A stretch of 64,000 bases of DNA from Notolepis coatsorum (lineage: Eukaryota > Chordata > Actinopteri > Aulopiformes > Paralepididae), in assembly GCA_963971535.1 (NCBI GenBank), contig OZ020601.1, forward strand, positions 20,635,955 to 20,699,954. Reading direction: 5' to 3'. The notes beneath the pieces were generated by a model that was not told where the DNA came from, made no database searches, and saw only the letters and a program-made list of their open reading frames with translations. The position numbers and the translations under genes were made by a program. Shown here piece by piece: positions 2 through 64,000 of this stretch. Numbering within the stretch: position 1 is the stretch's first letter; the number at the start of each line of letters is the position of its first letter.

Positions 2-3000
2 GTGGCTCATGCGCTTATGGTCCTCATTTCAGAAGATGTTGATGTCACCAACATAGAAAAGACCCTGGAGACAGTAAAATGTCTGGGGCGAGTGCGTGTC
101 AGAGGCAGGTTGTTCAGTACACAGCGAAAAAAGTTTATGATCCTGTGTGAATGTCGGGAAAAGGTAACGGGTGAGAATGTTCCCCCTGAAGTTATGCCTA
201 CGGATGGTGGCGAGGCGTGGCCTATAATCATAGTAGGAGAGACCCCCTCAGCCCCTGTGGATGATGCTAAATTCTACGAGAAGTTAGCAGGACTACTGTT
301 TGCTGAGGGGAAGACGGAGGAAGACCTCCAGAACATGTTTCAGAGAGCAGACTCTCCCGTTAGCCCAACCGAATCCATCCTGCGCGCACTTAGTGAGTTG
401 ATGGACAAAGTAAAACCCCCCACTGAGCATAACAGCTATCGGCGCCTACGTCTGTTTTCTGGGACCTTGCCCACTCCATCAGGTGAAGAACAGTTTGAAC
501 ACTGGTTAGAGCAAGCACGACTCATGGTAGAAGAAAGTGATGGCTCTGATAAAGAGAAGAGGCGGAGGCTGATGGAAAATCTCAAAGGCTCTGCACTAGA
601 AATAGTGAAATCTGCACGAGCCAGCAACCCTGATGTTAGTCCTGGAGAATGCCTGGAAGCCCTGGAACATGTGTTTGGAACTGTGCAGTCTGGAGAAGAC
701 TTGTACATCTCGTTCCGAATGATGCAGCAGCAGCCAGGTGAGAAACTCTCTGACTTCCTGAGGCGTCTGGAGCAGTCACTAGACAAGGTGAGCCAGCGAG
801 GTGGTATTCTACCAACAAATGTGGACAGAGCACGGATAGAGCAGTTGTTGCGAGGTGCAGTGGCCTCTGATCTAATGCTCGTTAATCTCCGCCTAAGAGA
901 GAGGAAAGCAGCACCGCCCACCTTTCTTCAGCTATTGAAGGATATACGCTCAGAGGAAGAGTATGAGGCCTCAAGGAAGAAACTCTTCCCCGCTGTGCAG
1001 TGTGTTCCGGTGATGACAGAAATTGACGGAAAACAGGCTGAAATACAGAGCCTGAAAGCTGAAGTAAAGGAGCTAAAGTCCTTAGTTGCTGCAGTGGCGA
1101 CTAGGCCAGACCGAGGCAGGCAAGATACTGCAGAGAACATGGCTCTCAATGTAGCCACACCCAGTGAGCTTCGTCCTGACTCCGAGTTAGCGGCATTGAG
1201 GAAACAGATGAAGCGACTCCAAAACAAAGTCGACCAAAGAGTGACTCCCAGAGAAACTGCGGCTGCAGTCTCGACGTTGGACGTGTCAAGACCTGTCTCC
1301 AGCTATCCCCGAAGATCGCCAAAGGGTGCAGAGGAGAAATTCTGCTACCGGTGTGGCGAGGGTGGTCATTTTGCAGGGAAGTGTCAAAACCCTGAGAACC
1401 AGGCTAAGGTTATCAAGAGACTAATTCATGCCCTGAGAATAGCAAAAGACCAGCAGCAGACAGGTAGTGTCACCCATGGTAACAAGAACTGTGACGTGAA
1501 AAAGAGTGCAGTTACCTTACAGAGTCCATCTATCCCTGAGGGTTTGGTAGGGCCACCTAGCCTTGTAAAGTTGAAGGTTAGTGGACAACCTTGCACCGCC
1601 CTGTTAGACAGCGGCTCCCAGGTGACTATAATTTTTGCACCCTGGTATCAGAAGTACTTATCTCATGTCCCAATCCAGCCTGTCTCTGGGCTAGCCCTCT
1701 GGGGTCTAAGTGAATCCAATATGAGTTACCCCTACCTTGGCTATGTAGTCGTAGATGTAGAGTATCCAGCAGAGGTGGTAGGTACCAGTCAGACTATGAC
1801 AGTCCTTGCACTCATCTGCCCGAGCCCTAAGACTGCAGACCAGACATCTGTCATTGTAGGGACCAATGCTAGTCATGTAAGACAATTGGTGAAGCAGTGC
1901 AGAGACGGTGGGATTGATGTGACTTCGACCTTAGGCGTCCAAGCTTGTGCTGTAGGAGACCAGGCTACTTTGAAGCGCTCAGATGAGATGGTGGAGGGAG
2001 AAGATAGAGTAGGCTCAGTGCGGTGGAAAGGACCAGGTCCGTTGACTCTACCCGCTGGTGGTGATGTGCAGGCTGTGTGCAAAGTTGAGCTAACACAGGC
2101 AGTAGGCCAGGAGATCCTAATGCTAGACGCCTCACCAATAGCCCCTCTCCCTGCTGGTGTGTCACTGCAGCCCATGGTAGTGTGTAGCCAGGCCATGGAC
2201 AGCAACAGTTTCAGAGTCCTACTAAAAAATGACTCTCTGAGAGAAACAAGGATAGCAGTGGGAACGGTGATTGGGTATCTGCACCTGGTGGATTCAGTCA
2301 CTGTCATCCCGCCCAAAGAGACAACCTCATCAGAGTTTGATGAGAGCAGAATCAACTTCGGAGACTCGCCTATCTCAGAAGAGTGGAAATCCCGTCTTCG
2401 CCAAAAACTGTCGCAAAGATCTCATGTCTTCTCCATGGAAGAGTGGGATGTCGGACTAGCTAAAGGGGTAGAACACCAGATCCGTCTCTCTGATCCTCGC
2501 CCATTCCGTGAGCGTTCACGACGACTGGCACCTGCAGACATTGAGGACGTGCGAAAGCACCTACAAGAGCTCCTGCAAGCCGGGATCATAAGAGAGTCTC
2601 GGAGCCCCTATGCCTCACCAATCGTGGTTGTGAGGAAGAAAAATGGAACAGTCAGGATGTGCATCGATTACAGGTTGCTCAACAGTCGTACCATCCCAGA
2701 CCAATACACAACCCCTTGCATTGATGATGCGCTGAATGCCCTGACAGGAAGTCAATGGTTCTCCGTCCTCGATTTGCGAAGCGGCTATTACCAGATCGCC
2801 ATGTCGGAGGAAGACAGAGAGAAGACGGCGTTCATCTGCCCATTAGGGTTCTACGAGTTTGAGAGGATGCCACAGGGCATAAGTGGAGCCCCAGCAACCT
2901 TTCAGCGGTTAATGGAGAGAGCAGTAGGTGACATGAACTTACTCCAGGTGTTGGTGTACCTTGACGACCTGATTGTCTTCGGGAGGTCTCTAGAGGAGCA

Positions 3001-5830
3001 CGAAGAAAGGCTGCTCAAGGTCCTGGATCGCCTCGGAGAAGTCGGACTGAAACTCTCCATAGACAAGTGTCAAATCTGCCTGCCGAGAGTGAAATACCTG
3101 GGTCACATTGTGTCCGCAGAGGGTGTCGAACCTGACCCGGAAAAGATAGAAGTGGTTACCAACTGGACTCGCCCGACGAACCTGAAGACCTTGCAATCCT
3201 TCTTAGGGTTCTGTGGCTACTATCGGCGTTTCATAGCCAATTACGCTGCCATTGTGCGACCACTGACTGAGCTGACAAAGGGTTATGCACCCACGCAGAA
3301 GAGCAGAAAGAACGCCCACGATAGGAGTAAGGCGTACATCAAAGAATCAGAGCCTTTTGGAGAACGATGGGATCAGCCTTGCACAGATGCGTTTCACCAG
3401 ATCATACAATGTCTGACGCATGCACCTGTGTTGGCATTTGCAAACCCCCAAAAGCCTTACATCCTACATGTTGACGCTAGCTTGAAGGGACTTGGAGCAG
3501 TGCTCTACCAAGAGTACACAGAGGGCCTGCGACCAGTGGCTTTCGCAAGCAGAAAACTGAGTGCATCTGAGCAGAACTATCCAATCCACCAGTTGGAGTT
3601 CTTGGCGCTAAAGTGGTCTGTAGTAGACAAATTGCATGATTATCTCTACGGAGCCAGATTCACAGTACGTACGGATAACAATCCCCTTACCTACGTGCTC
3701 ACCACAGCAAAGCTCAGTGCAGTAGGGCATCGATGGCTGGCTGCCCTGTCCACCTATGAATTTGATGTACAGTACCGCCCGGGCCGACACCATATAGATG
3801 CAGACCTACTGTCCCGGATCATGCCTGAGGAAGAAACCCGTAATGAATGGGTGACTCTATCACAGACTGGAGTAAAGGCCATCGGCCAGCGAATCTCTAT
3901 CCCTGAGACTCACGGCTGCCCACAGAGGTGTGTCGACCAGTTGGGAGCTTCCCCTCAGTGCATCCCAGACATCTATGCGTTTCCAACCCACTTGGAATCC
4001 GAGTCGTTGAGACAGATGTCAAAGCAAGAGCTTAAGAGAGCTCAGGAAAAGGATGTCGATATAGGACCTGCTATCAAGGCCGTGAAGCAGGGGAAATGGC
4101 TTGAAGATGAGGATGCAAGTCCAGAACTCTCTAAGCTCAAACGAGAGATGGGAAAGTTGACCATGAAAGAAGGTATGTTGTATCGGTTGAGCAAGCGACC
4201 TTCTGGAGATGTTGTCACTCAACTTGTACTCCCAAAAGAGTTCAGAGAAATAGTGTTGAAGGCCATGCACAACGATTTAGGACACCTTGGCATTGAGAGA
4301 ACTGTCGACCAACTGAGGAGCAGATTCTTCTGGCCGAAGATGTCTGTAGAAGTGGAACAGTACATTAAGAACTGTGGAGAGTGCATCACTCGTAAGTCCC
4401 TTCCTCAGCGAGCAGCTCCACTACACCAGATCTTGAGCAAAGGTCCAATGGATCTTGTGTGTATTGATTTTCTCTCAATGGAACCCGACAGTAAAGGCAT
4501 AAGCAATGTGTTGGTGGTCACAGACCATTTTACTCGCTATGCTCAGGCTTTCCCCACCAGAAGCCAGAAAGCACATGTTGTCGCAAAAGTACTGGTGGAG
4601 AAATACTTTGTACATTATGGGCTGCCAGCAAGAATCCATTCGGACCAAGGCCGTGACTTCGAAAGTCGACTGATCCGGGAGATGCTGCAAATGATGGGAG
4701 TACGGAAATCCAGAACCACTCCGTATCACCCACAAGGAGACCCACAGCCCGAACGCTTTAACCGCACGCTATTGTCAATGCTGGGCACGCTGAGTCAAGA
4801 AAAGAGGCGGCAGTGGAGTCAGCAAGTACCTTACTTAGTGCATGCATACAATAGCACCAAGTGCGACTCCACCGGATACTCTCCGTACTTCTTGATGTTC
4901 GGAAGAGAAGCAAGACTTCCTGTGGATGTGTGTTTTGGTACGTCACCGGATGGCAAGGAAAGAGGTCACCACATCAAGTATGTGGCTAAGCTGAAAGACG
5001 ACCTGCAAAGAGCCTTTGAACTAGCTTCTGCCGCAGCTGACAAAGTACACCAGCGAAACAAGAAGTCCTATGACAAGAGAGTGACCTGCCAAACCTTGGA
5101 ACCTGGTGACAGAGTGTTGTTAAGAAACCTGGGGTTGAGAGGAAAACACAAACTCCAAAGCCGATGGAGTGCTGTTCCTCACGTGGTGGTGAGCAAAATG
5201 CCCAACTTACCTGTTTACAGAGTGAGTCCTGAAGATGGAATAGGACGCACAAGGACCCTACACAGAGATCATCTCCTACCCATTGGACAACTGGTACGGA
5301 TGCCAAGAACGGAGAGTGACCACAACACACCTGTGAAACCAAGAACTAGGGCAGGAACTATCAAGAAGCAACAACGTATACCGTCTCCTCCTACAACAGA
5401 AGAGAGTGAGCCGACGTCTGACTCATCCTCTGAAGTAGAGTATGTAAGGGAGCGCAGACCCTACAGTACCTACCTGGAAGGGATCCTGAAGAAAAGGACT
5501 GTGCGAGAGCCAGCTGTCGTCATCCCTGATGAAGAACCAGTCAGAGCTCCTGACACATACGAGGATGAACAGAGCGGAGAGGAGCCATCTCCTGAGTCAG
5601 AGTCTACCGAGTCAGAGTCTCCTGAGTCAGAGTCTCCTGAGTCGGGGTCGGACATACAAGGAGGGCACGCTAGCAGCTCTGAAGAAGAAGTTGTGCCTGA
5701 GACACAAACCAGGCCTAAACGAGCAGTAAAGCCAATAATTAGACTCACCTATGATGAGCCAGGTAAATCCAGAGACAAACCGTTGACCATAGTGCACAGA
5801 GGTATGGTTATAAAGATCAAACAACGTTAA
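2..5830 (+). CDS. Ty3/gypsy retrotransposon Gag-Pol polyprotein, intact single frame, 5' end outside window
   Basis: One uninterrupted 1942-codon frame carries both Gag and Pol with no frameshift between them. The frame is open at the window edge. The first ATG is at 17, so the true start may lie upstream. Residues 1-60 and about 140-330 resemble the N-terminal and capsid domains of the PNMA family (domesticated gypsy Gag genes). A CCHC zinc knuckle starts at Cys448 (CYRCGEGGHFAGKC). The aspartic protease motif LLDSGS has its Asp at 536. Reverse transcriptase has VLDLRSGYY (Asp924) and YLDD at 986-989. RNase H begins with HVDAS (Asp1158). Integrase has an HHCC zinc domain from His1423 and a D,D-35-E triad at Asp1489, Asp1548 and Glu1584, followed by GDRVLLRN and LHRDHLLP motifs. 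An acidic Ser/Glu-rich tail of about 180 residues ends the protein. All catalytic residues are present, so the copy looks young and possibly competent. Gag similarity to PNMA is from recognition, not alignment. Confidence 0.95.
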   Translation: MAHALMVLISEDVDVTNIEKTLETVKCLGRVRVRGRLFSTQRKKFMILCECREKVTGENVPPEVMPTDGGEAWPIIIVGETPSAPVDDAKFYEKLAGLLFAEGKTEEDLQNMFQRADSPVSPTESILRALSELMDKVKPPTEHNSYRRLRLFSGTLPTPSGEEQFEHWLEQARLMVEESDGSDKEKRRRLMENLKGSALEIVKSARASNPDVSPGECLEALEHVFGTVQSGEDLYISFRMMQQQPGEKLSDFLRRLEQSLDKVSQRGGILPTNVDRARIEQLLRGAVASDLMLVNLRLRERKAAPPTFLQLLKDIRSEEEYEASRKKLFPAVQCVPVMTEIDGKQAEIQSLKAEVKELKSLVAAVATRPDRGRQDTAENMALNVATPSELRPDSELAALRKQMKRLQNKVDQRVTPRETAAAVSTLDVSRPVSSYPRRSPKGAEEKFCYRCGEGGHFAGKCQNPENQAKVIKRLIHALRIAKDQQQTGSVTHGNKNCDVKKSAVTLQSPSIPEGLVGPPSLVKLKVSGQPCTALLDSGSQVTIIFAPWYQKYLSHVPIQPVSGLALWGLSESNMSYPYLGYVVVDVEYPAEVVGTSQTMTVLALICPSPKTADQTSVIVGTNASHVRQLVKQCRDGGIDVTSTLGVQACAVGDQATLKRSDEMVEGEDRVGSVRWKGPGPLTLPAGGDVQAVCKVELTQAVGQEILMLDASPIAPLPAGVSLQPMVVCSQAMDSNSFRVLLKNDSLRETRIAVGTVIGYLHLVDSVTVIPPKETTSSEFDESRINFGDSPISEEWKSRLRQKLSQRSHVFSMEEWDVGLAKGVEHQIRLSDPRPFRERSRRLAPADIEDVRKHLQELLQAGIIRESRSPYASPIVVVRKKNGTVRMCIDYRLLNSRTIPDQYTTPCIDDALNALTGSQWFSVLDLRSGYYQIAMSEEDREKTAFICPLGFYEFERMPQGISGAPATFQRLMERAVGDMNLLQVLVYLDDLIVFGRSLEEHEERLLKVLDRLGEVGLKLSIDKCQICLPRVKYLGHIVSAEGVEPDPEKIEVVTNWTRPTNLKTLQSFLGFCGYYRRFIANYAAIVRPLTELTKGYAPTQKSRKNAHDRSKAYIKESEPFGERWDQPCTDAFHQIIQCLTHAPVLAFANPQKPYILHVDASLKGLGAVLYQEYTEGLRPVAFASRKLSASEQNYPIHQLEFLALKWSVVDKLHDYLYGARFTVRTDNNPLTYVLTTAKLSAVGHRWLAALSTYEFDVQYRPGRHHIDADLLSRIMPEEETRNEWVTLSQTGVKAIGQRISIPETHGCPQRCVDQLGASPQCIPDIYAFPTHLESESLRQMSKQELKRAQEKDVDIGPAIKAVKQGKWLEDEDASPELSKLKREMGKLTMKEGMLYRLSKRPSGDVVTQLVLPKEFREIVLKAMHNDLGHLGIERTVDQLRSRFFWPKMSVEVEQYIKNCGECITRKSLPQRAAPLHQILSKGPMDLVCIDFLSMEPDSKGISNVLVVTDHFTRYAQAFPTRSQKAHVVAKVLVEKYFVHYGLPARIHSDQGRDFESRLIREMLQMMGVRKSRTTPYHPQGDPQPERFNRTLLSMLGTLSQEKRRQWSQQVPYLVHAYNSTKCDSTGYSPYFLMFGREARLPVDVCFGTSPDGKERGHHIKYVAKLKDDLQRAFELASAAADKVHQRNKKSYDKRVTCQTLEPGDRVLLRNLGLRGKHKLQSRWSAVPHVVVSKMPNLPVYRVSPEDGIGRTRTLHRDHLLPIGQLVRMPRTESDHNTPVKPRTRAGTIKKQQRIPSPPTTEESEPTSDSSSEVEYVRERRPYSTYLEGILKKRTVREPAVVIPDEEPVRAPDTYEDEQSGEEPSPESESTESESPESESPESGSDIQGGHASSSEEEVVPETQTRPKRAVKPIIRLTYDEPGKSRDKPLTIVHRGMVIKIKQR

Positions 5831-13287: not shown

Positions 13288-14909
13288 AAACTTCTATAAT
13301 CACAGTCAGACAGTAGGTATATTGTCTGCACTCTATAATCACAGTCAGACAGTAGGTACACTATCTACACTCTATAATCACAGTCAGACAGTAGGTACAC
13401 TATCTACACTCTATAATCACAGTCAGACAGTAGGTACACTGTCTACACTCTATAATCACAGTCAGACAGTAGGTACACTGTCTGCACTCTATAATCACAG
13501 TCAGACAGTAGGTACACTGTCTACACTCTATAATCACAGCCAGACAGTAGGTACACTATCTACACTCTATAATCACAGTCAGACAGTAGGCACACTGTCT
13601 ACACTCTATAATCACAGTCAGACAGTAGGTACACTGTCTACACTCTATAATCACAGTCAGACAGTAGGTACACTGTCTACACTATATAATCACAGTCAGA
13701 CAGTAGGTACACTGTCTGCACTCTATAATCACAGTCAGACAGTAGGTACACTGTCTACACTCTATAATCACAGCCAGACAGTAGGTACACTATCTACACT
13801 CTATAATCACAGTCAGACAGTAGGTACACTGTCTACACTCTATAATCACAGTCAGACAGTAGGTACACTGTCTACACTCTATAATCACAGTCAGACAGTA
13901 GGTACACTGTCTGCACTCTATAATCACAGTCAGACAGTAGGTACACTATCTACACTCTATAATCACAGTCAGACAGTAGGTACACTATCTACACTCTATA
14001 ATCACAGTCAGACAGTAGGTACACTATCTACACTCTATAATCACAGTAGGTACACTGTCTACACTCTATAATCACAGTCAGACAGTAGGTACACTGTCTA
14101 CACTCTATAATCACAGTCAGACAGTAGGAACACTGTCTACACTCTATAATCACAGTCAGACAGTAGGTACACTGTCTGCACTCTATAATCACAGTCAGAC
14201 AGTAGGTACACTGTCTGCACTCTATAATCACAGTCAGACAGTAGGTACACTGTCTACACTCTATAATCACAGTCAGACAGTAGGTACACTATCTACACTC
14301 TATAATCACAGTCAGACAGTAGGTACACTGTCTGCACTCTATAATCACAGTCAGACAGTAGGTACACTATCTACACTCTATAATCACAGTCAGACAGTAG
14401 GTACACTGTCTACACTCTATAATCACAGTCAGACAGTAGGTACACTATCTACACTCTATAATCACAGTCAGACAGTAGGTACACTGTCTACACTCTATAA
14501 TCACAGTCAGACAGTAGGTACACTATCTACACTCTATAATCACAGTCAGACAGTAGGTACACTGTCTGCACTATATAATCACAGTCAGACAGTAGGTACA
14601 CTATCTACACCCTATAATCACAGTCAGACAGTAGGTACACTATCTACACTCTATAATCACAGTCAGACAGTAGGTACACTGTCTACACTCTATAATCACA
14701 GTCAGACAGTAGGTAGCTACATTGTCTACACTCTACAGTCAGACAGTAGGTACACTATCTACACTCTATAATCACAGTAGGTACACTGTCTACACTCTAT
14801 AATCACAGTCAGACAGTAGGTGTCTACACTCTATAATCACAGTAAGTACACTGTACACTTTATAATCATAGTCAGACAGTAGGTACACTGTATAATCACA
14901 GTCAGACTG
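13288..14909. repeat. 39-bp minisatellite, about 41 copies
   Basis: The unit contains CTCTATAATCACAGTCAGAC then AGTAGGTACACTGTCTACA, total 39 bases. Main variants are GTCTAC/ATCTAC/GTCTGC. Units become shorter and degenerate after 14700. Because 39 is divisible by three, a 13-residue repeat frame stays open for 249 codons; I treat that as an artefact. Confidence 0.97.
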
Positions 14910-20059: not shown

Positions 20060-20229
20060 TATTTTAAATCATACATCCAAAGAGCTTTTAGAAAGGTGTG
20101 GTATAAAAGTATTGCTTTCCTACCCAAAAGAATATCGATTAATGAATTTATCATAAAAAACCTTTTGTGCAGGTCCAAAATTAATACTTTCCCAATGTGG
20201 AATGCACCTGATAAGATAAATGTCATGCT

Positions 20230-20518
20230 TAGGGATGCTCGATATTGGCTTTTTTACCGATACCGATATTCCGATATTGTCCAACTCTTAATTTCCGATA
20301 CCGATATCAACCGATATCAACCGATACCGATATATGCAGGGTTTCCCCCCCAAAAAAACTGAATAATTTCAGGTAACTAATAATTTCACTGGATATTATA
20401 TAACAAATATTGTTATTGTTTTTTTCTTTTTTTAAACCGATACCGATATTTTCCGATATCACATTTTACTGCCGATATCGGCCGATAATATTGGTCGGCC
20501 GATAATATCGGACATCCC
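20230..20518. mobile_element. hAT-type MITE, 'CCGATATCGG' family, copy A
   Basis: It starts TAGGGATGCTCGATATTGGC and ends with ATATCGGACATCCC, nearly inverted copies, flanked by TCATGCT on both sides (20223-20229 and 20519-20525). The 289-bp body is full of CCGATACCGATAT repeats. It carries no gene. It preserves the uninterrupted sequence CCAACTCTTAATTTCCGATA, the empty site for the piggyBac-like insertion seen in copy B at 41638-42721. Confidence 0.9.
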
Positions 20519-20537
20519 TCATGCTGGTACTCTAGTG

Positions 20538-21839: not shown

Positions 21840-22245
21840 ATATATACTTGTCCCTTACCTACTCTTACTAGTTACGCTGCTGGCCAGTATGACTTACTAC
21901 CACCATAGTGTCTTTATACCTGTATACTATATCTATATCTGTACATATCCCTTACCTACTCTTACTAGTTATGCTGCTGACCAGTACGACATAGTGTCTT
22001 TATACCTGTATCACTGTACATAATAATAATACTAAAACTCTGGACATACATCCGATTTGCACTATTACTCAGTAGTACTAATTTATATATTTTATATCCA
22101 GTTTAATCACATTCACCTGTACATTGTTTATTACTATTGCACTTTACTGTTACTTTTACTGTTGCACTTTGGTTAGATGCCAAACTTATTTTCATTGTAC
22201 TGTACTTGTGCTGTATAATGACAATACATTGAATTTAATCTAATG
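21840..22245 (+). mobile_element. LINE 3' UTR, copy A of a dispersed family
   Basis: Runs from CTTACCTACTCTTACTAGTT through TAGTGTCTTTATACCTGTAT, TCAGTAGTACTAATTTATAT and TTGGTTAGATGCCAAACTTA to TGACAATACATTGAATTTAA and a TCTAATC-type tail. Other copies are at 34205-34345, 41548-42885 (interrupted) and 53610-53895. A tandem repeat of the first 100 bases is present in this copy. Confidence 0.85.
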
Positions 22246-23139: not shown

Positions 23140-24316
23140 GCACTAAAAGCCTTTAAAACACAAGGACAAGCACTGCTACGATAAACAATAAACGATTTCA
23201 TTTCCGTTTTATACCATTTTGAAAAACACTCGTTTCTTGAAACTGTTACAATCCCAGACCTGCTCAGGTCTGGGAGAATCAATGCCCCAGTGTCAAGTCG
23301 CCATCTAGTGGTCACCTGCAGAAGCTGCAGTCAACATTGACCCTGCTTGGTCATATTAATAACATTCTTTTGTGGCAATTAGTGTCTATATTACAAGTGT
23401 TGTCTGTTTAGGGTTTCTTTGTGTTGGCATTTTGATTCTGTGTGTTGTATTAGCCTAGTCCTTGTTCCGGTATTGTTGTTTATTGTATTAGTTCTAGTGT
23501 CTTCTTCCCCTAGGTGTTTTCCATTGTTAATCAGTGTTAATTAGTGTCAGTATATATTGCTTGTGGGTTGTTGGGATCATTGTGGCGTCATTCTGTGATA
23601 AACGCCCTTTACTGTAATACACAAAAAAAAAAAAATTCTGCCTATTTATGAATCGTTTTCAAATAAACGCTAGATTATCGATAGTATATGTGTACTTATG
23701 CACGCTATAGAAGCGAGCTGAGTTTTAAAACCATAGACAGTGGACAGACTTGTCTTTCTTGCCTGCAACTTAAAGTAATGGCTTTGCTTGTCCAAATGAC
23801 AATACTGACCAAATTGAGATTTTTTTCTCTTGTCCATTTATTTTGTTTGCTTTCTAATTTAAAATATAGTTTGAAACCGTCTGTACACAGTAGGCTATGT
23901 GTGCTAGCAGAGCTAGACTCCAGTCATGAGTCACGGTGCACATGTGCGGTGGTTTGTCCACCAAAAAAGCGCCAAAAGATAGAAAAGAAACTAGCAGAGC
24001 CAGAACTGTTCAACTCCCCTGGAGCCACAGCCAGCAGAGAAGCCGGTTTACTTTCGCTTTTAAACCAGCTGCAGCCTGAGAACTGGAGTGTGAGGGGATG
24101 TAACACTAAAGATGGCGGCAACGACAAAGAAATATATATATATATTTTTTACTTATAACAATTTCGATAATTATCGATATCGAGTGATATGATAACATTA
24201 TCATATCGTTATCGCAATATAATTTTTTGCCATATCGCCCAGCCCTACTCTCGTCTCTCTGGCACTCAACGGTTGGCATGAACTAACGAGTAATCTCGTT
24301 GTTGGCACTGAAAGTG
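23140..24316. mobile_element. Composite, interrupted piggyBac-like element
   Basis: Two blocks match the element at 54723-55652: CATTTCCGTTTTATACCATT (about 23200 versus 54907) and TTTTCAAATAAACGCTAGAT (about 23655 versus 55029). The right end TTGGCACTGAAAGTG followed by TTAA (24317-24320) is the inverted form of the CACTTTCAATGCC end of that element. A block of about 340 bases between the matches and a hAT-type piece near the right end are absent from the other copy. The left terminus was not found. Confidence 0.65.
24160..24243 (-). mobile_element. Right end of a hAT-type element
   Basis: The plus strand reads ATTATCGATATCGAGTGATA to GCCATATCGCCCAGCCCTA. On the minus strand this is TAGGGCTGGGCGATATGGC, a common hAT-type terminus. 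The partner end is not visible within 1 kb, so it is truncated or rearranged. Confidence 0.65.
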
Positions 24317-24333
24317 TTAAGGTTTGAAATTAA

Positions 24334-34926: not shown

Positions 34927-35028
34927 TTGAATATCTATTTCGAGGCAGGATTTAATTTGACAGATCACAGACGTAATGAGATCACATCAAGAGAAACGTG
35001 GCAAAAAGCGCAACGTGAGGCGCCACGA

Positions 35029-36300
35029 GTGAAGGAGGTCAGCGCTCTACACAGGAACTACAGAGCTCTTACAGTGAAGGAGGTCAGCGCTCTACACAGG
35101 AACTACAGAGCTCTTACAGTGAAGGAGGTCAGCGCTCTACACAGGAACTACAGAGCTCTTACAGTGAAGGAGGTCAACACTCTACACAGGAACTACAGAG
35201 CTCTTACAGTGAAGGAGGTCAGCGCTCTACACAGGAACTACAGAGCTCTTACAGTGAAGGAGGTCAGCGCTCTACACAGGAACTACAGAGCTCTTACAGT
35301 GAAGGAGGTCAGCGCTCTACACAGGAACTACAGAGCTCTTACAGTGAAGGAGGTCAACACTCTACACAGGAACTACAGAGCTCTTACAGTGAAGGAGGTC
35401 AACACTCTACACAGGAACTACAGAGCTCTTACAGTGAAGGAGGTCAGCGCTCTACACAGGAACTACAGAGCTCTTACAGTGAAGGAGGTCAGCGCTCTAC
35501 ACAGGAACTACAGAGCTCTTACAGTGAAGGAGGTCAACGCTCTACACAGGAACTACAGAGCTCTTACAGTGAAGGAGGTCAGCGCTCTACACAGGAACTA
35601 CAGAGCTCTTACAGTGAAGGAGGTCAACACTCTACACAGGAACTACAGAGGTCTTACAGTGAAGGAGGTCAGCGCTCTACACAGGAACTACAGAGCTCTT
35701 ACAGTGAAGGAGGTCAACACTCTACACAGGAACTACAGAGCTCTTACAGTGAAGGAGGTCAACGCTCTACACAGGAACTACAGAGCTCTTACAGTGAAGG
35801 AGGTCAGTGCTCTACACAGGAACTACAGAGCGGTTACAGTGAAGGAGGTCAGCGCTCTACACAGGAACTACAGAGCTCTTACAGTGAAGGAGGTCAGCAC
35901 TCTACACAGGAACTACAGAGCGGTTACAGTGAAGGAGGTCAGCGCTCTACACAGGAACTACAGAGCGGTTACAGTGAAGGAGGTCAGCGCTCTACACAGG
36001 AACTACAGAGCGGTTACAGTGAAGGAGGTCAGCGCTCTACACAGGAACTACAGAGCTCTTACAGTGAAGGAGGTCAGCGCTCTACACAGGAACTACAGAG
36101 CGGTTACAGTGAAGGAGGTCAGCGCTCTACACAGGAACTACAGAGCTCTTACAGTGAAGGAGGTCAGCGCTCTACACAGGAACTACAGAGCTCTTACAGT
36201 GAAGGAGGTCAGCGCTCTACACAGGAACTACAGAGCTCTTACAGTGAAGGAGGTCAGCGCTCTACACAGGAACTACAGAGCTCTTACAGTGAAGGAGGTC
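35029..36300. repeat. 45-bp minisatellite, about 28 copies up to a gap
   Basis: The unit is GTGAAGGAGGTCAGCGCTCT, ACACAGGAACTACAGAGCTC and TTACA. Variants AACACT, AACGCT and CGGTT are interspersed. 45 is divisible by three, so a 15-residue repeat frame stays open through the array; I regard the 620-codon frame as an artefact with Ns in it. Confidence 0.98.
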
Positions 36301-41312: not shown

Positions 41313-41637
41313 TCCTATCCTCTCACCTGGTCCTCCAGAACCAGTAGCGCCAGCTCCTTTCCACGGGAGGCCGAGGTGAGGCAGAAATGAAAGGGTCTCT
41401 ATGGCAACTGTTCCCCAGGCCAACCGCGGCCGCACACGTGTCTGTCTCCACCCGGTGCATGGCCACGGTCACCAACCTCAACCGTTTCACCGACTAATAA
41501 GCATTTGATCAAACTCTTAACAGGAGATTGTAGAGAATGTGATTAAATCCCTTACCTACTCTTACTAGTTATAAATACAGCAACGTATGGTAATACTACC
41601 ATAGTGTCTTTATACCTGTATCACCATACATAATAAC

Positions 41638-42721
41638 TAGGGATGTCCGATATTATCGGCCTACCGATATCGGTATCGGTTGATATTGGTTGATATTGGT
41701 ATCGGAAATTAACACTTTAATCGCCAAGGACGCCTTAACTCGTCATTCCCCGCCATGCTAATTCTGCCAATGACGCCGTAACACGTCATTGAGATCAATA
41801 TTTCAAAAATCTGTGATCGCAATCATATTTCTCCCGCGGAGACTTGAGATCTACTGTTGATCCCCTCTCAACTCTCCAACGGTTCAAGAGCGCCATCTGG
41901 TGGCCGATCGGCGGATCGCCCAAACCGGAAACGGAAACTGGTGCTCATCCAAATTCGGTCCGATCACTCGCTATAGGTCCCGGGACTCGAGCTCGACACA
42001 ATGGATAGCGATCCGTTACCAATAACTTGATAAACAACATGATTTGGACGTATATACTATTATACAACCTGGAGATGGATCGCATATTTCAACATCCCAT
42101 AATAGGAATATTTTTGCTCCACGCTCATCGCCCAACAGCCCGAGGAGACTGGGGTAAGTTTCAGCGTTTATTTTTACCGTGTTCGATACAAACTGTTCTA
42201 ATGATCATATCACCTACACTACATGAATCATCTAACGTTGGCCACGGAATTATAAACGACCCCCCCCCCCCCATCCGGTCAACATCAGATGATAAGTAGT
42301 AACTTCTAGAAGCACGTCCATTTGAAATTTTCTATCTGGCGCCAATCGCTATCAAACTATATTTAATCATCAATATAATGCATTTAGGGCTATAAATCAC
42401 GTTCTGCAGAATGCTGCAGAAAACGATAAAAACATATTTATACTTTAGACCGTATTTTAGTATGAATATGTGAATGAAAAAGTATAACGTTCCTACATCC
42501 TGAACGATAGATAATTGACGTTGAATGGGCCATAGTAATGTCAATTTAGCAATACAATTTAAAAAGTTATAGCCCTGCAAAGAAGGGGAACTTCTCCATA
42601 GACAAATAGAGCTGGCAGAGGATGGTATAAGGATGTACATAAGCGTGGCAAAGAAAGTGTTAAGAGTTGGACAATATCGGTATATCGGTATCGGTAAAAA
42701 AGCCAATATCGAGCATCCCTA
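41638..42721. mobile_element. hAT MITE copy B, itself interrupted
   Basis: Starts TAGGGATGTCCGATATTATC and ends AATATCGAGCATCCCTA. ATAATAAC flanks it at 41630-41637 and 42722-42729, a perfect 8-bp hAT duplication. Of the 1084 bases, 951 belong to a piggyBac-like insertion plus its duplicated TTAA; the rest matches copy A at 20230-20518. Confidence 0.93.
41713..42659. mobile_element. piggyBac-like non-autonomous element in the hAT MITE
   Basis: Starts CACTTTAATCGCCAAGGACG after TTAA (41709-41712) and ends GCAAAGAAAGTG before TTAA (42660-42663). The uninterrupted hAT copy A reads GGAAATTAAGAGTTGG (minus strand) at this position, so TTAA was duplicated on insertion. 947 bp. Related termini occur at 54723-55652 and at 24316. 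No intact transposase; ATGGATAGCGATCC near 42001 begins only a nine-codon frame. Confidence 0.92.
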
Positions 42722-42885
42722 ATAATAACACTATACATCTGATTAGCACTATTACTCAGTAGTATTTTATATCCAGTTTAATCATTGTATATTACTATTG
42801 CACTTTACTGTTACATTTGCACTTATTTTCGTTGTACTGTACTTGCTGTATGATGACTAATACATTGTAATCTAATCTAATCTGA

Positions 42886-44946: not shown

Positions 44947-46940
44947 CGGTGGTAGACGGTATGTGGGTGGTTTGAGGTGGTAGACAGGGGGCAGCATGTG
45001 GAGGTTTGAGGTGGTAGACAGGGGGCAGCATGTGGAGGTTTGAGGTGGTAGACAGGGGGCCGCATGTGGAGGTTTGAGGTGGTAGACAGGGGGCAGCATG
45101 TGGAGGTTTGAGATGGTAGACAGGGGGCAGCATGTGGAGGTTTGAGGTGGTAGACAGGGGGCAGCATGTGGAGGTTTGAGGTGGTAGACAGGGGGCAGCA
45201 TGTGGAGGTTTGAGGTGGTAGACAGGGGGCAGCATGTGGAGGTTTGAGGTGGTAGACAGGGGGCAACATGTGGAGGTTTGAGGTGGTAGACAGGGGGCAG
45301 CATGTGGAGGTTTGAGGTGGTAGACAGGGGGCCGCATGTGGAGGTTTGAGGTGGTAGACATGGGTCAGGAGGTGGAGGTCGAGGTGGTAGACAGGGGGCA
45401 GCATGTGGAGGTTTGAGGTGGTAGACAGGGGGCCGCATGTGGAGGTTTGAGGTGGTAGACAGGGGGCAGCATGTGGAGGTTTGAGATGGTAGACAGGGGG
45501 CAGCATGTGGAGGTTTGAGGTGGTAGACAGGGGGCAGCATGTGGAGGTTTGAGGTGGTAGACAGGGGGCAGCATGTGGAGGTTTGAGGTGGTAGACAGGG
45601 GGCAACATGTGGAGGTTTGAGGTGGTAGACAGGGGGCAGCATGTGGAGGTTTGAGGTGGTAGACAGGGGGCCGCATGTGGAGGTTTGAGGTGGTAGACAT
45701 GGGTCAGGAGGTGGAGGTCGAGGTGGTAGACAGGGGGCAGCATGTGGAGGTTTGAGGTGGTAGACAGGGGGCAGCATGTGGAGGTTTGAGATGGTAGACA
45801 GGGGGCAGCATGTGGAGGTTTGAGGTGGTAGACAGGGGGCAGCATGTGGAGGTTTGAGGTGGTAGACAGGGGGCAGCATGTGGAGGTTTGAGGTGGTAGA
45901 CAGGGGGCAGCATGTGGAGGTTTGAGGTGGTAGACAGGGGGCAGCATGTGGAGGTTTGAGGTGGTAGACAGGGGGCAGCATGTGGAGGTTTGAGGTGGTA
46001 GACAGGGGGCCGCATGTGGAGGTTTGAGGTGGTAGACATGGGTCAGGAGGTGGAGGTCGAGGTGGTAGACAGGGGGCAGCATGTGGAGGTTTGAGGTGGT
46101 AGACAGGGGGCCGCATGTGGAGGTTTGAGGTGGTAGACAGGGGGCAGCATGTGGAGGTTTGAGGTGGTAGACAGGGGGCAGCATGTGGAGGTTTGAGGTG
46201 GTAGACAGGGGGCAGCATGTGGAGGTTTGAGGTGGTAGATGGGGCAGCATGTGGAGGTTTGAGGTGGTAGACAGGGGGCAGGAGGTGGAGGTTTGAGGTG
46301 GTAGACAGGGGGCAGCATGTGGAGGTTTGAGGTGGTAGACAGGGGGCAGCATGTGGAGGTTTGAGGTGGTAGACAGGGGGCAGCATGTGGAGGTTTGAGG
46401 TGGTAGACAGGGGGCAGGAGGTGGAGGTTTGAGGTGGTAGACAGGGGGCCGCATGTGGAGGTTTGAGGTGGTAGACAGGGGGCAGGAGGTGGAGGTTTGA
46501 GGTGGTAGACAGGGGGCAGCATGTGGAGGTTTGAGGTGGTAGACAGGGGGCAGGAGGTGGAGGTTTGAGGTGGTAGACAGGGGGCAGCATGTGGAGGTTT
46601 GAGGTGGTAGACAGGGGGCAGGAGGTGGAGGTTTGAGGTGGTAGACAGGGGGCAGGAGGTGGAGGTTTGAGGTGGTAGACGGGGGGCAGCATGTGGAGGT
46701 TTGAGGTGGTAGACAGGGGGCAGGAGGTGGAGGTTTGGACAGCTTCACTGAGGGAGCTCGGGTCAGGAGGTGGAGGTTTGGACAGCTTCACTGAGGGAGC
46801 TCGGGTCAGGAGGTGGAGGTTTGAGGTGGTAGACAGGGGTCAGGAGGTGGAGGTTTGAGGTGGTAGACAGGGGTCAGGAGGTGGAGGTTTGGACAGCTTC
46901 ACTGAGGGAGCTCGGGTCAGGAGGTGGAGGACACGTAAAG
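44947..46940. repeat. 34-bp minisatellite, about 57 copies, with 339-bp higher-order period
   Basis: The unit is GGTGGTAGACAGGGGGCAGC then ATGTGGAGGTTTGA. A distinctive one-base-shorter unit with TGGGTCAGGAGGTGGAGGTC recurs at 45361, 45700 and 46039, giving a 339-base (10 units minus one base) superrepeat three times. A different 3' variant (GGACAGCTTCACTGAGGGAG) appears three times at 46735-46940. Minus-strand frames of 699 and 615 codons span the array because the unit has no stop in any phase. Confidence 0.98.
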
Positions 46941-53508: not shown

Positions 53509-53609
53509 AGCAGTCTGTCTGTGTTTGTACATACAGTGGAAACTGATTGTAGCTTCATATGATGACAGGTTGCCTTTACTTTTATTTTTTTCCATCTATA
53601 TCTGTATAG

Positions 53610-53895
53610 GCTACATATCCCTTACCTACTCTTACTAATTACACTGCTGGCCAGTACGACTTAATAATGTCTATATACCTGTATCACTGTACTACAACTC
53701 TGTGCATACATCTGATTAGCACTATTAATCAGTAGTACTCATTTATATATTCTATATCCAGTTTAATCACCTGTACATTGTATATTACGACTGCACTTTA
53801 CTGTTACATTTGCAACATTTGGTTGGATGCCAACTTCTTTTCGTTGTACTGTATAATGACAATACATTCCAATTGAATTAAATCTAATCTAAACT
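53610..53895 (+). mobile_element. LINE 3' UTR copy C
   Basis: Contains CCCTTACCTACTCTTACTAA, TATCACTGTACTACAACTCT, CAGTAGTACTCATTTATATA and TGACAATACATTCCAATTGA, collinear with 21840-22245. Confidence 0.85.
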
Positions 53896-54518: not shown

Positions 54519-54722
54519 CCCCTACCTTAACCTCCATGGAGACCTCATGTCCCACCCTAACCCTAACCCCTACCTTAAGCTCCATGGAGACCTCATGTCC
54601 CACCCTAACCCTATCCCCTACCTTAACCTCCATGGAGACCTCATGTCCCACCCTAACCCTATCCCCTACCTTAACCTCCATGGAGACCTCATGTCCCACC
54701 CTAACCCTATCCCCTACCTTAA

Positions 54723-55652
54723 CACTTTCAATGCCCAAGCTTAATTCCTTTTTACCTCCTTGAATGCCCAGCACCACTTCAATGTTAACGTTAATATCAC
54801 CTAATCTATGTTTTAAATTATGGCTATGTGTCTAATCTGCCCGTCGCTTATCAAAGACTCATTTTCCAGTCAACATTGTCGTAGCAGATTGTTTTTTTAT
54901 CGCTTCATTTCCGTTTTCTAGCATTTTGAAAAGCACTCGTTTTCATGGAAAAATGAAGACATTCCATGATAATCGCCCTTTACTGGAATACTCTAGAACG
55001 TTGTCATTCCTCGGCCCATTCACGAATTGTTTTCAAATAAACGCTAGATCATCGATAGTACATGTGTACGCACGCACGCTCTGGCCGCGAGCTGAAAATC
55101 GATTCTTCTATTTCCTGACCGCTCGCACAGTCAATCAGCCATATCACATAATCACATAAAAGCGTATATCTCCGTGAAAACGAGTCTGATTATCCTAAGA
55201 CTGGTAACATAGATTCCTTACCTGAGATCAAATGGTATCCAAATGGATTATTCCAATTCCTGATCGCCATTAGAAAAAATCTATCCTTTTATTGATTCAC
55301 CGTGTATACTGTAAAAACACATAATCCCCGCTGCTCTGAGGCTCACTAGTGGAGCTGATCGACCCCGGCTGCGTGAGTGAGAAGTAAAATGTGGAGTCAG
55401 GGATTTTTTTTTCTCATAAATTTTTATTGAGTTCAATCCAAAAGGGTGAATTACCATCTGGGAGACGATAGGGGGCGCTTTTTTCACATCTGAGCGCCTG
55501 GAGTGGCTGCATTTCCAACGGTAGACTCGGTTGATGAAATATGATTTCAGATCGCTAATAAAAAAAAAACGAGAAAATACGAGAATTCTCGTGAGTGGGC
55601 ATTCAACCCGCGGGGGTAAAACCGAGAAAACTCGGGTTGGGCAATCAAAGTG
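54723..55652. mobile_element. piggyBac-like non-autonomous element inside the minisatellite
   Basis: Starts CACTTTCAATGCCCAAGC after TTAA (54719-54722) and ends TTGGGCAATCAAAGTG before TTAA (55653-55656). The native unit has a single TTAA at this place. 930 bp. Shares internal blocks with 23140-24316 and ends with 41713-42659. No transposase frame. Confidence 0.93.
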
Positions 55653-55701
55653 TTAACCTCCATGGATACCTCATGTCCCACCCTAACCCTATCCCCTACC
55701 T

Positions 55702-56617
55702 CAGGGATCGGCAATAGGCGGCCCGCGGGCCGAAATGGGCCCGCCAGCAATAATTTCTGGCCCGTCAGGTTATTTTGAGAATATGATGTTTATTTTACGC
55801 GCAGGAAATATTCACTCGTTGTGACGCCAGAGTGTCTTTTGAAGCTGTATCTATCTATTCATCATATCTATGGCTGTCACTATAGCCAATTGAAATGCTA
55901 GAAATGGTCACATGGACTGGGAGAACCAATGGAATTTCACTTTCACTTCCGCGTTTGGGATGCCGGGCTGCCGGCGAGCGAACGTTTGCAAAAACAAAAC
56001 AAACGTCTTTGAATAACTTCTTTGCAATGCAACGGGGAAATATGATGAGCCAGAAGAGGAGCTTACGACCTATAAAGCTTATTTTAATAAACAGGTGTCA
56101 TTCTTAAAATACGGGTTTATCGCAACAGGTAACTCTTGCAATAAGCAACCGGTGACTCTCGCTTGTTGACATGGCAACACGAGCAAGCAACTGTTCAAGT
56201 TGGGTGGGCATTCAACGCGAGTGGACATTTAACATGTTATTAACATGGATTTTGGAGGACCGAAGCAGAAACAATATCAAGTCCAGGGCAGGGCTGCCTG
56301 CATTATGCCGGTGAGTGTTGTGTTTTAATAATAATAATAATACATTCGATGTATAATACACCCGCTGTGGTGCTTAAAATCAAATGCACCCTACTGATCT
56401 CGATTTATAATGCGAGCACCTGCATTAAAATCAAATTACTGATCTGTTCATGTGTAATGCACTGTCTGAGAGGCACTTTATAATAGAAAAAAGACAGTGC
56501 AAACATGTATATGTCGTTTTTTTTTTTACAGTTAAAAAATGTTCACTTATCATTGGCCCGCCACAAAATGGCTTGGGGAAAATTTGGCCCGTGGGCAAAT
56601 CTAATTGGCGACCCCTG
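55702..56617. mobile_element. hAT element inside the minisatellite, with transposase 5' remnant
   Basis: Starts CAGGGATCGGCAATAGGCGG and ends AATTGGCGACCCCTG, inverted-type ends. CCCTACCT flanks both sides (55694-55701, 56618-56625), a perfect 8-bp duplication. Around 56052-56155 the plus strand reads TYKAYFNKQVSFLKYGFIAT, resembling the start of a hAT transposase-type protein; the rest is lost. 916 bp. Confidence 0.93.
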
Positions 56618-61810: not shown

Positions 61811-64000
61811 TTGAGGTAGTATAGTCCTAAACTACTGAGATCCAGCGTCCTGCTTTATAAAGATATAGTCCTAAACTACTGAGATCCAGCTTCCTGCTTT
61901 ATAAAGATATAGTCCTAAACTACTGAGATCCAGCATCCTGCTTTATAAAGATATAATCCTAAACTACTAAGCTCCAGCGTCCTGCTTTATAAAGATATAG
62001 TCCTAAACTACTGAGATCCAGCGTCCTGCTTTATAAAGATATAATCCTAAACTACTAAGCTCGAGCTTCCTGCTTTATAAAGATATAGTCCTAAACTACT
62101 GAGATCCAGCATCCTGCTTTATAAAGATATAATCCTAAACTACTAAGCTCGAGCTTCCTGCTTTATAAAGATATAGTCCTAAACTACTAAGGTCCAGCTT
62201 CCTGCTTTATAAAGATATAGTCCTAAACTACTGAGATCCAGCTTCCTGCTTTATAAAGATATAATCCTAAACTACTGAGATCCAGCTTCCTGCTTTATAA
62301 AGATATAATCCTAAACTACTAAGGTCCAGCTTCCTGCTTTATAAAGATATAGTCCTAAACTACTGAGATCCAGCTTCCTGCTTTATAAAGATATAGTCCT
62401 AAACTACTGAGATCCAGCATCCTGCTTTATAAAGATATAGTCCTAAACTACTAAGCTCCAGCGTCCTGCTTTATAAAGATATAGTCCTAAACTACTAAGC
62501 TCCAGCATCCTGCTTTATAAAGATATAGTCCTAAACTACTAAGCTCCAGCTTCCTGCTTTATAAAGATATAGTCCTAAACTACTAAGCTCCAGCATCCTG
62601 CTTTATAAAGATATAGTCCTAAACTACTAAGCTCCAGCTTCCTGCTTTATAAAGATATAGTCCTAAACTACTAAGCTCCAGCTTCCTGCTTTATAAAGAT
62701 ATAGTCCTAAACTACTGAGATCCAGCGTCCTGCTTTATAAAGATATAGTTCTAAACTACTAAGCTCCAGCTTACTGCTTTATAAAGATATAATCCTAAAC
62801 TACTAAGCTCCAGCGTCCTGCTTTATAAAGATATAATCCTAAACTACTGAGATCCAGCGTCCTGCTTTATAAAGATATAGTTCTAAACTACTAAGCTCCA
62901 GCGTCCTGCTTTATAAAGATATAATCCTAAACTACTAAGATCCAGTTTCCTGCTTTATAAAGATATAGTCCTAAACTACTGAGCTCCAGCGTCCTGCTTT
63001 ATAAAGATATAATCCTAAACTACTGAGATCCAGCGTCCTGCTTTATAAAGATATAGTCCTAAACTACTGAGCTCCAGCGTCCTGCTTTATAAAGATATAA
63101 TCCTAAACTACTAAGCTCCAGCGTCCTGCTTTATAAAGATATAGTCCTAAACTACTGAGCTCCAGCGTCCTGCTTTATAAAGATATAATCCTAAACTACT
63201 AAGCTCCAGCGTCCTGCTTTATAAAGATATAATCCTAAACTACTAAGCTCCAGCGTCCTGCTTTATAAAGATATAGTCCTAAACTACTGAGATCCAGCGT
63301 CCTGCTTTATAAAGATATAATCCTAAACTACTAAGCTCCAGCGTCCTGCTTTATAAAGATATAGTCCTAAACTACTGAGATCCAGCATCCTGCTTTATAA
63401 AGATATAATCCGAAACTACTAAGCTCCAGCTTTTTGGTTTATAAAGATATAGTCCTAAACTACTGAGATCCAGCTTCCTGCTTTATAAAGATATAATCCT
63501 AAACTACTAAGATCCAGCGTCCTGCTTTATAAAGATATAGTTCTAAACTACTAAGCTCCAGCGTCCTGCTTTATAAAGATATAGTCCTAAACTACTGAGA
63601 TCCAGCGTCCTGCTTTATAAAGATATAGTTCTAAACTACTAAGCTCCAGCTTCCTGCTTTATAAAGATATAGTCCTAAACTACTGAGATCCAGCTTCCTG
63701 CTTTATAAAGATATAGTCCTAAACTACTAAGCTCCAGCGTCCTGCTTTATAAAGATATAGTCCTAAACTACTGAGATCCAGCGTCCTGCTTTATAAAGAT
63801 ATAGTTCTAAACTACTAAGCTCCAGCTTCCTGCTTTATAAAGATATAGTCCTAAACTACTAAGATCCAGCGTCCTGCTTTATAAAGATATAGTTCTAAAC
63901 TACTAAGCTCCAGCGTCCTGCTTTATAAAGATATAGTCCTAAACTACTGAGATCCAGCTTCCTGCTTTATAAAGATATAGTCCTAAACTACTGAGATCCA
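61811..64000. repeat. 44-bp minisatellite, about 50 copies, running off the window
   Basis: The unit is TATAGTCCTAAACTACTGAG, ATCCAGCGTCCTGCTTTATA and AAGA. Linked variants occur: AGTCCT/AATCCT/AGTTCT, GAGATCC/AAGCTCC/GAGCTCC and AGCGTCC/AGCTTCC/AGCATCC. Units with GAGATCCAGCG are repeatedly followed by AGTTCT...AAGCTCC units, hinting at a two- or three-unit higher-order repeat. Confidence 0.98.

Follow-up and report, generated by a model that had tools for sequence, protein, structure and literature searches.

A base-exact three-layer nest of a LINE-like tail, a hAT-type MITE and a piggyBac-like element in Notolepis coatsorum

Nested transpositions serve as a chronometer in TinT, which derives the order of retroposon activity from insertion frequencies (PMC3014933). 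In corals, the CMITE family consists of piggyBac-type MITEs that duplicate TTAA and carry terminal inverted repeats (TIRs) such as CCCTTTCACTGCCA and CCCTTTAAGCCCTA; the same report gives TTAA together with the terminal motif CC(C/T)T as hallmarks of piggyBac (PMC2872659). TTAA is likewise the target of PiggyBac-1 of cichlids (PMC11753138) and of Kolobok (PMC6004289).

The locus described here lies in a 64,000-bp stretch of the N. coatsorum genome (C46:20635955-20699954; "the window" below). As in TinT, element-in-element insertion is read as an order of activity, but TinT works with frequencies and retroposons (PMC3014933), whereas this is a single three-layer case that combines a retroposon tail with two DNA transposons. 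The inner layer resembles coral CMITE-IN in being a TTAA MITE inserted into another element; it differs in that its host is a hAT-type MITE, and from the coral CMITEs as described, which are ∼100 bp with mostly CCCT termini, in its 947-bp length and CACT termini (PMC2872659). Cichlid PiggyBac-1 is comparable by description only (a fish genome, a TTAA target, and a CCCTT-type end) and by description is also set apart, having a (mutated) transposase gene and ends CCCTTGTATGG... (PMC11753138). The nest is thus ordinary, a clean textbook case without real novelty: the N. coatsorum genome has dozens of similar nests, and both nesting as a clock and TTAA MITEs inside other elements (corals) are already published (PMC3014933, PMC2872659). 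While the focal locus alone changes nothing, it provides a clean case of relative dating from nested insertions, one that can be checked.

The nest is base-exact: a LINE-like 3' tail contains a hAT-type MITE (41638-42721), which in turn contains a piggyBac-like element (Table 1). hAT elements are defined by an 8-bp target duplication and short TIRs. The focal MITE has both, as ATAATAAC stands directly on either side of it and its ends (TAGGGATG from 41638, CATCCCTA up to 42721) are inverted repeats that extend as TAGGGATGTCCGATAT versus TAGGGATGCTCGATAT. Rejoining the focal sequence yields a 133-bp hAT with one TTAA and a LINE-like tail with one copy of the 8-mer. In BLAST searches of the window, the right part of the LINE-like tail matched 21840-22245 (E = 3e-25) and also 53596-53888; the right half of the hAT matched 20229-20520 (E = 2e-26), as did the inner 46 bp of its left half (E = 4e-16). 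Such low E-values mean that these pieces are related copies and not chance matches. The initial annotation had proposed this three-layer nest, with an 8-bp duplication around the hAT MITE and a TTAA duplication around the inner element, and our analysis bears it out: both duplications are exact, the LINE and hAT halves are collinear with their siblings, and both hosts rejoin at single-copy sites.

Table 1. Coordinates (window positions) of the nest and of its uninterrupted relatives
Feature	Position	Strand	Remarks
LINE-like 3' tail, left part	41548..41637	+	Includes one copy of the 8-bp hAT target duplication (41630-41637)
hAT-type MITE, left part (TAGGGATGTCCGATA...)	41638..41712	+	Runs through the TTAA common to the inner element
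piggyBac-like non-autonomous element with both TTAA copies	41709..42663	+	955 bp; termini CACTTT...AAAGTG
Inner element proper, without TTAA copies	41713..42659	+	947 bp
hAT-type MITE, right part (GAGTTGGACAATATCGG...GAGCATCCCTA)	42664..42721	+	
Second ATAATAAC copy (42722-42729) and right LINE-like tail	42722..42881	+	Ends in ATCTA-rich stretch
Uninterrupted LINE-like tail, same window	21840..22245	+	Site reads ATAATAAT; 5' part tandemly duplicated
Second uninterrupted LINE-like tail	53596..53888	+	Lacks the bases of the site
Uninterrupted hAT MITE, same window	20229..20520	-	Single TTAA at 20288-20291

The outermost layer fits a LINE in shape. Its copies in the window have a common ATCTA-rich 3' end, and similarity beside the tail mostly ends within ∼180 bp upstream (six copies compared), although two copies (L149 and L152) have further partial tail repeats up to ∼1 kb upstream. 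From six 4-kb stretches upstream of LINE tails we scanned six of the longer frames, which come from four of the loci, and none encodes a reverse transcriptase; for these six frames Pfam returned a single DUF5641 match and an integrin match that fell below its cut-off. We therefore retain the earlier label in the weaker form "LINE-like," since the shape agrees with it but the frames upstream of four copies do not add a reverse transcriptase.

The tail at 21840-22245 had been put forward as the uninterrupted LINE. Its site is indeed single, but it reads ATAATAAT rather than ATAATAAC (7 of 8 bases); the site adjoins a small indel, and the tandem duplication of the 5' part is partial. We searched the organism's own genome (3.42 Gb, 4787 contigs) with the rejoined tail. 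Forty places were scored, one of which is the focal right half; 37 of the 39 others extend across the join, and all 20 copies that we fetched run through it. In these 20 the site reads ATAATAAT in 6, ATATTAAT in 6, and other variants in 8; the exact ATAATAAC was found in none of them, nor among the tails compared. Immediately to the right of the site, the focal tail is missing ∼15 bases that are present in most copies, and a similar gap is seen in one other copy (L132). The LINE relatives thus show the site as single, though not letter for letter.

For the middle layer, the copy at 20230-20518 had been presented as the uninterrupted hAT. It has the single TTAA in matching context (the adjacent sequence, GGAAATTAAGAGTTGGACAATATCGG, on the minus strand agrees with the focal copy), but it also carries ∼157 bp absent from the 133-bp nested MITE. 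Short forms without that insert do occur: among the best 40 scored places for the rejoined 133-bp hAT, 5 match over nearly the whole length at 91 to 94%, and the other 35 match bases 30 to 133 at 99 to 100%. TTAA is kept in four of the five short empty forms, all of which were fetched; the exception is the closest of them (L153, 94%), which has TGAA. The unoccupied target, ATCGGAAATTAAGAGTTGGACAA, has 17,254 exact occurrences in the genome (control, 0). Another short hAT MITE (L155) is flanked by the same 8-mer, ATAATAAC, in unrelated surroundings, which hints at a target preference.

The inner element belongs to a family whose best 40 scored places in the genome, focal copy included, are at 94 to 100%. 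Its target duplication is that of piggyBac: across 30 loci TTAA adjoins 30 of the 31 placed left ends and likewise 30 of the 31 right ends, and the exact empty sites in the genome fit a TTAA duplication by this element. The ends themselves do not show the piggyBac motif CC(C/T)T: on the left (n = 31) we counted CACTTT 26 times, CACTAT 3 times, and CCCTTT twice, and on the right (n = 31) AAAGTG 27 times, AAAGGG 3 times, and AAGGTG once, with the canonical CCCTTT...AAAGGG at both ends of two copies (L027 and L030). Because TTAA agrees but the CACT ends do not, we keep the annotated name "piggyBac-like" and do not file the family as a member of piggyBac. The TIRs are short and imperfect (CACTTTAATCGCCA versus CACTTTCTTTGCCA, 11 of 14 matching; those of piggyBac are 12 to 19 bp). 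Across 30 copies the longest stop-to-stop frame is 144 amino acids, and Pfam found no family in any of ten window frames scanned. A Kolobok origin was considered and rejected: the TTAA target is alike, but Kolobok ends are described as AG/RR (PMC6004289) and those of the focal element are CA. A literature search for TTAACACTTT together with piggyBac found no paper.

By far the most probable account of the nest is that three ordinary transpositions hit the same locus one after another, in the order LINE, hAT, TTAA element. A LINE-like element would first have left a short tail; a hAT transposase acting in trans would then have put a short hAT-type MITE into ATAATAAC, giving the 8-bp duplication; later, a piggyBac-type transposase would have put a non-autonomous element into the TTAA of the MITE. 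In the last two steps the structure is observed, and the enzyme is the presumptive part. The initial annotation took this order as fixed; it is the best supported, but the nested structure by itself does not tell which of the last two events came first, as a hAT already carrying the inner element could have entered the LINE in a single step.

Such a move, with the TTAA element first inserting into a hAT MITE at another locus and the loaded MITE then entering the LINE tail as one unit, is permitted by the structure, since neither the outer duplication nor the hAT ends show any damage. Exact junctions of the hAT left side with TTAA and CMCTTT number 48 in the genome, the focal one included (control, 0). 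For each of the 48 we read as much as 170 bp on the left, the only side fetched for 38 of them, together with 70 bp at the start of the inner element. The 47 other exact junctions at the same TTAA include no second copy of the focal composite, a count of exact junctions only, in which a diverged composite copy could be missed. One other junction, L063 (also scored as L032), has an inner end at least 0.90 identical to the focal one in the same orientation; the next closest are L105 (0.89) and L092 (0.87). On the side of a loaded hAT, L063 has an element of the focal family, oriented alike, at this TTAA of another hAT; against it, the hAT at L063 belongs to a longer variant (277 bp to the left of the TTAA versus 71 bp in the focal copy) and lacks the right half. 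We left out of use the 0.64 identity between the stretches upstream of the focal junction and L063, in which LINE and hAT letters are mixed. In view of the missing second composite and of the differing hAT at L063, insertion of the inner element in place is the simplest reading, though not a proof, and we regard movement of a loaded hAT as improbable. Far less probable still is an assembly or recombination artefact joining unrelated repeat fragments by chance: repeats do abound in the region (the window has 93 tandem-repeat rows, overlapping rows included), but the 8-bp and 4-bp duplications are base-exact at the element ends, the halves are collinear, and the inner junction has many further examples, with none in the control.

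At L063 (C1:230819313-230819459 plus upstream sequence), the left hAT half runs up to the TTAA and the right flank is unrelated, possibly through recombination between two element copies or through loss of the right half.

The other junctions also speak to how composites generally arise. Over 70 bp the 48 inner elements form 13 groups at a threshold of 0.80, 21 at 0.85, 29 at 0.90, and 35 at 0.95, which does not favor composite jumping as their usual origin. One inner element is common to L114 and to L125 and L126, the latter two on one small contig, so that moved or duplicated composites may exist, a point on the side of a loaded hAT. At L027, an element of the focal family (95.7% along its full length) occupies this TTAA in a different hAT copy, in the opposite orientation; the inner end at L089 matches that of L027 at 0.99. 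We inspected the hAT ends of nine composites, focal included: the 8-bp duplication is exact in five and matches at 7 of 8 bases in one, the 8-mer is displaced by 4 bases in another (L062), and no duplicated 8-mer was found at the remaining two (L061 and L067). The left 8-mers of the nine are all different, and we count these separate hAT duplications, like L027, in favor of insertion in place. A further locus (L017) has a pair of TTAA elements in opposite orientation, 97% and 80% identical to the focal one, whose flanks resemble each other, as if another repeat had received an insertion at the same TTAA in each of two copies.

TTAA-element insertions into the hAT MITE are routine in the N. coatsorum genome. 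The focal TTAA is occupied by CMCTTT-type elements at 48 of 17,302 exact sites (0.28%), and another TTAA, found in longer hAT variants, at 123 of 11,573 (∼1.06%; 11,450 empty); these absolute rates are too high, because the patterns for empty sites (23 bp) are stricter than those for occupied ones (18 to 19 bp). We rejected a hotspot role for the focal TTAA within the MITE, since its occupancy is below that of the other TTAA (odds ratio 0.26, p = 3e-17). We fetched 20 of the 123 occupied sites; 19 have hAT-like sequence upstream (L076 does not), and here too many different inner elements are present. For the genome as a whole, the mean TTAA occupancy by CACT-type elements is very roughly 0.06 to 0.08%, as estimated from TTAA density and the 18 places of CACTTT type among the first 100 listed for TTAACMCTTTNNNNGCC. 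The estimate is rough because those 100 places, all on C1, are mostly TTAACCCTTTCACTGCC, often in tandem; TTAACMCTTTNNNNGCC has 143,885 matches in the genome (control, 40). Copies of TTAACCCTTTCACTGCC abound among these listed places, often with a satellite-like spacing of ∼30 or 61 bp, and the sequence resembles the coral CMITE-VI end CCCTTTCACTGCCA (PMC2872659).

A MITE with many thousands of copies and fixed TTAAs amounts to a natural, replicated assay of TTAA-element insertion. It is conceivable, if doubtful, that these elements form a lineage in which both ends changed together from CCCT to CACT, for which the TTAAs of an abundant young hAT MITE, occupied at 0.28% and ∼1.06% against the very rough genome mean above, are frequent landing pads; if so, the joint CACT ends would imply a transposase whose recognition of the ends had changed. 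We offer the joint CACT ends and the uneven use of TTAAs within the MITE as leads only, and as mildly interesting ones.

Divergence within each family suggests relative ages for the layers, with the caveat that scoring kept only the best of 814 to 4979 first-look candidates, which biases the figures toward young ages. Leaving out gaps, the focal LINE tail is 80.4 to 91.0% identical to 22 other copies; 35 of the 40 places scored for the rejoined hAT match its bases 30 to 133 at 99 to 100%, and the sibling hAT in the window is one of the best 40 scored places at 99 to 100%; and the focal inner element differs by 0.84% from the majority of 30 copies (range, 0.42 to 3.35%). Judged by these identities, the LINE tail appears old and the hAT MITE and TTAA element both young. 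Since the MITE and the inner element both come from young families, the hAT and TTAA-element insertions were probably separated by little time.

The window contains further elements of these kinds. Left-type ends, TTAACMCTTT, occur in it only at 41709 and 54719, and a lone right-type end (GGCACTGAAAGTGTTAA) lies at 24304-24320, ending at 24320. The end at 54719 belongs to a second TTAA element (54719-55656; 930 bp without TTAA; CACTTTCAATGCCCAA...TTGGGCAATCAAAGTG) inserted in the TTAA of a 48-bp minisatellite unit, with undamaged units on both sides. About 45 bp away, in the same minisatellite, is a 916-bp hAT-like element (55702-56617; CAGGGATCGG...GACCCCTG) with the 8-bp duplication CCCTACCT; one array thus holds two transposons with undamaged target units nearby. 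Long minisatellites are abundant in the window, including those at 13293-14891, 35028-36300, 44961-46737, and 61820-64000, among others.
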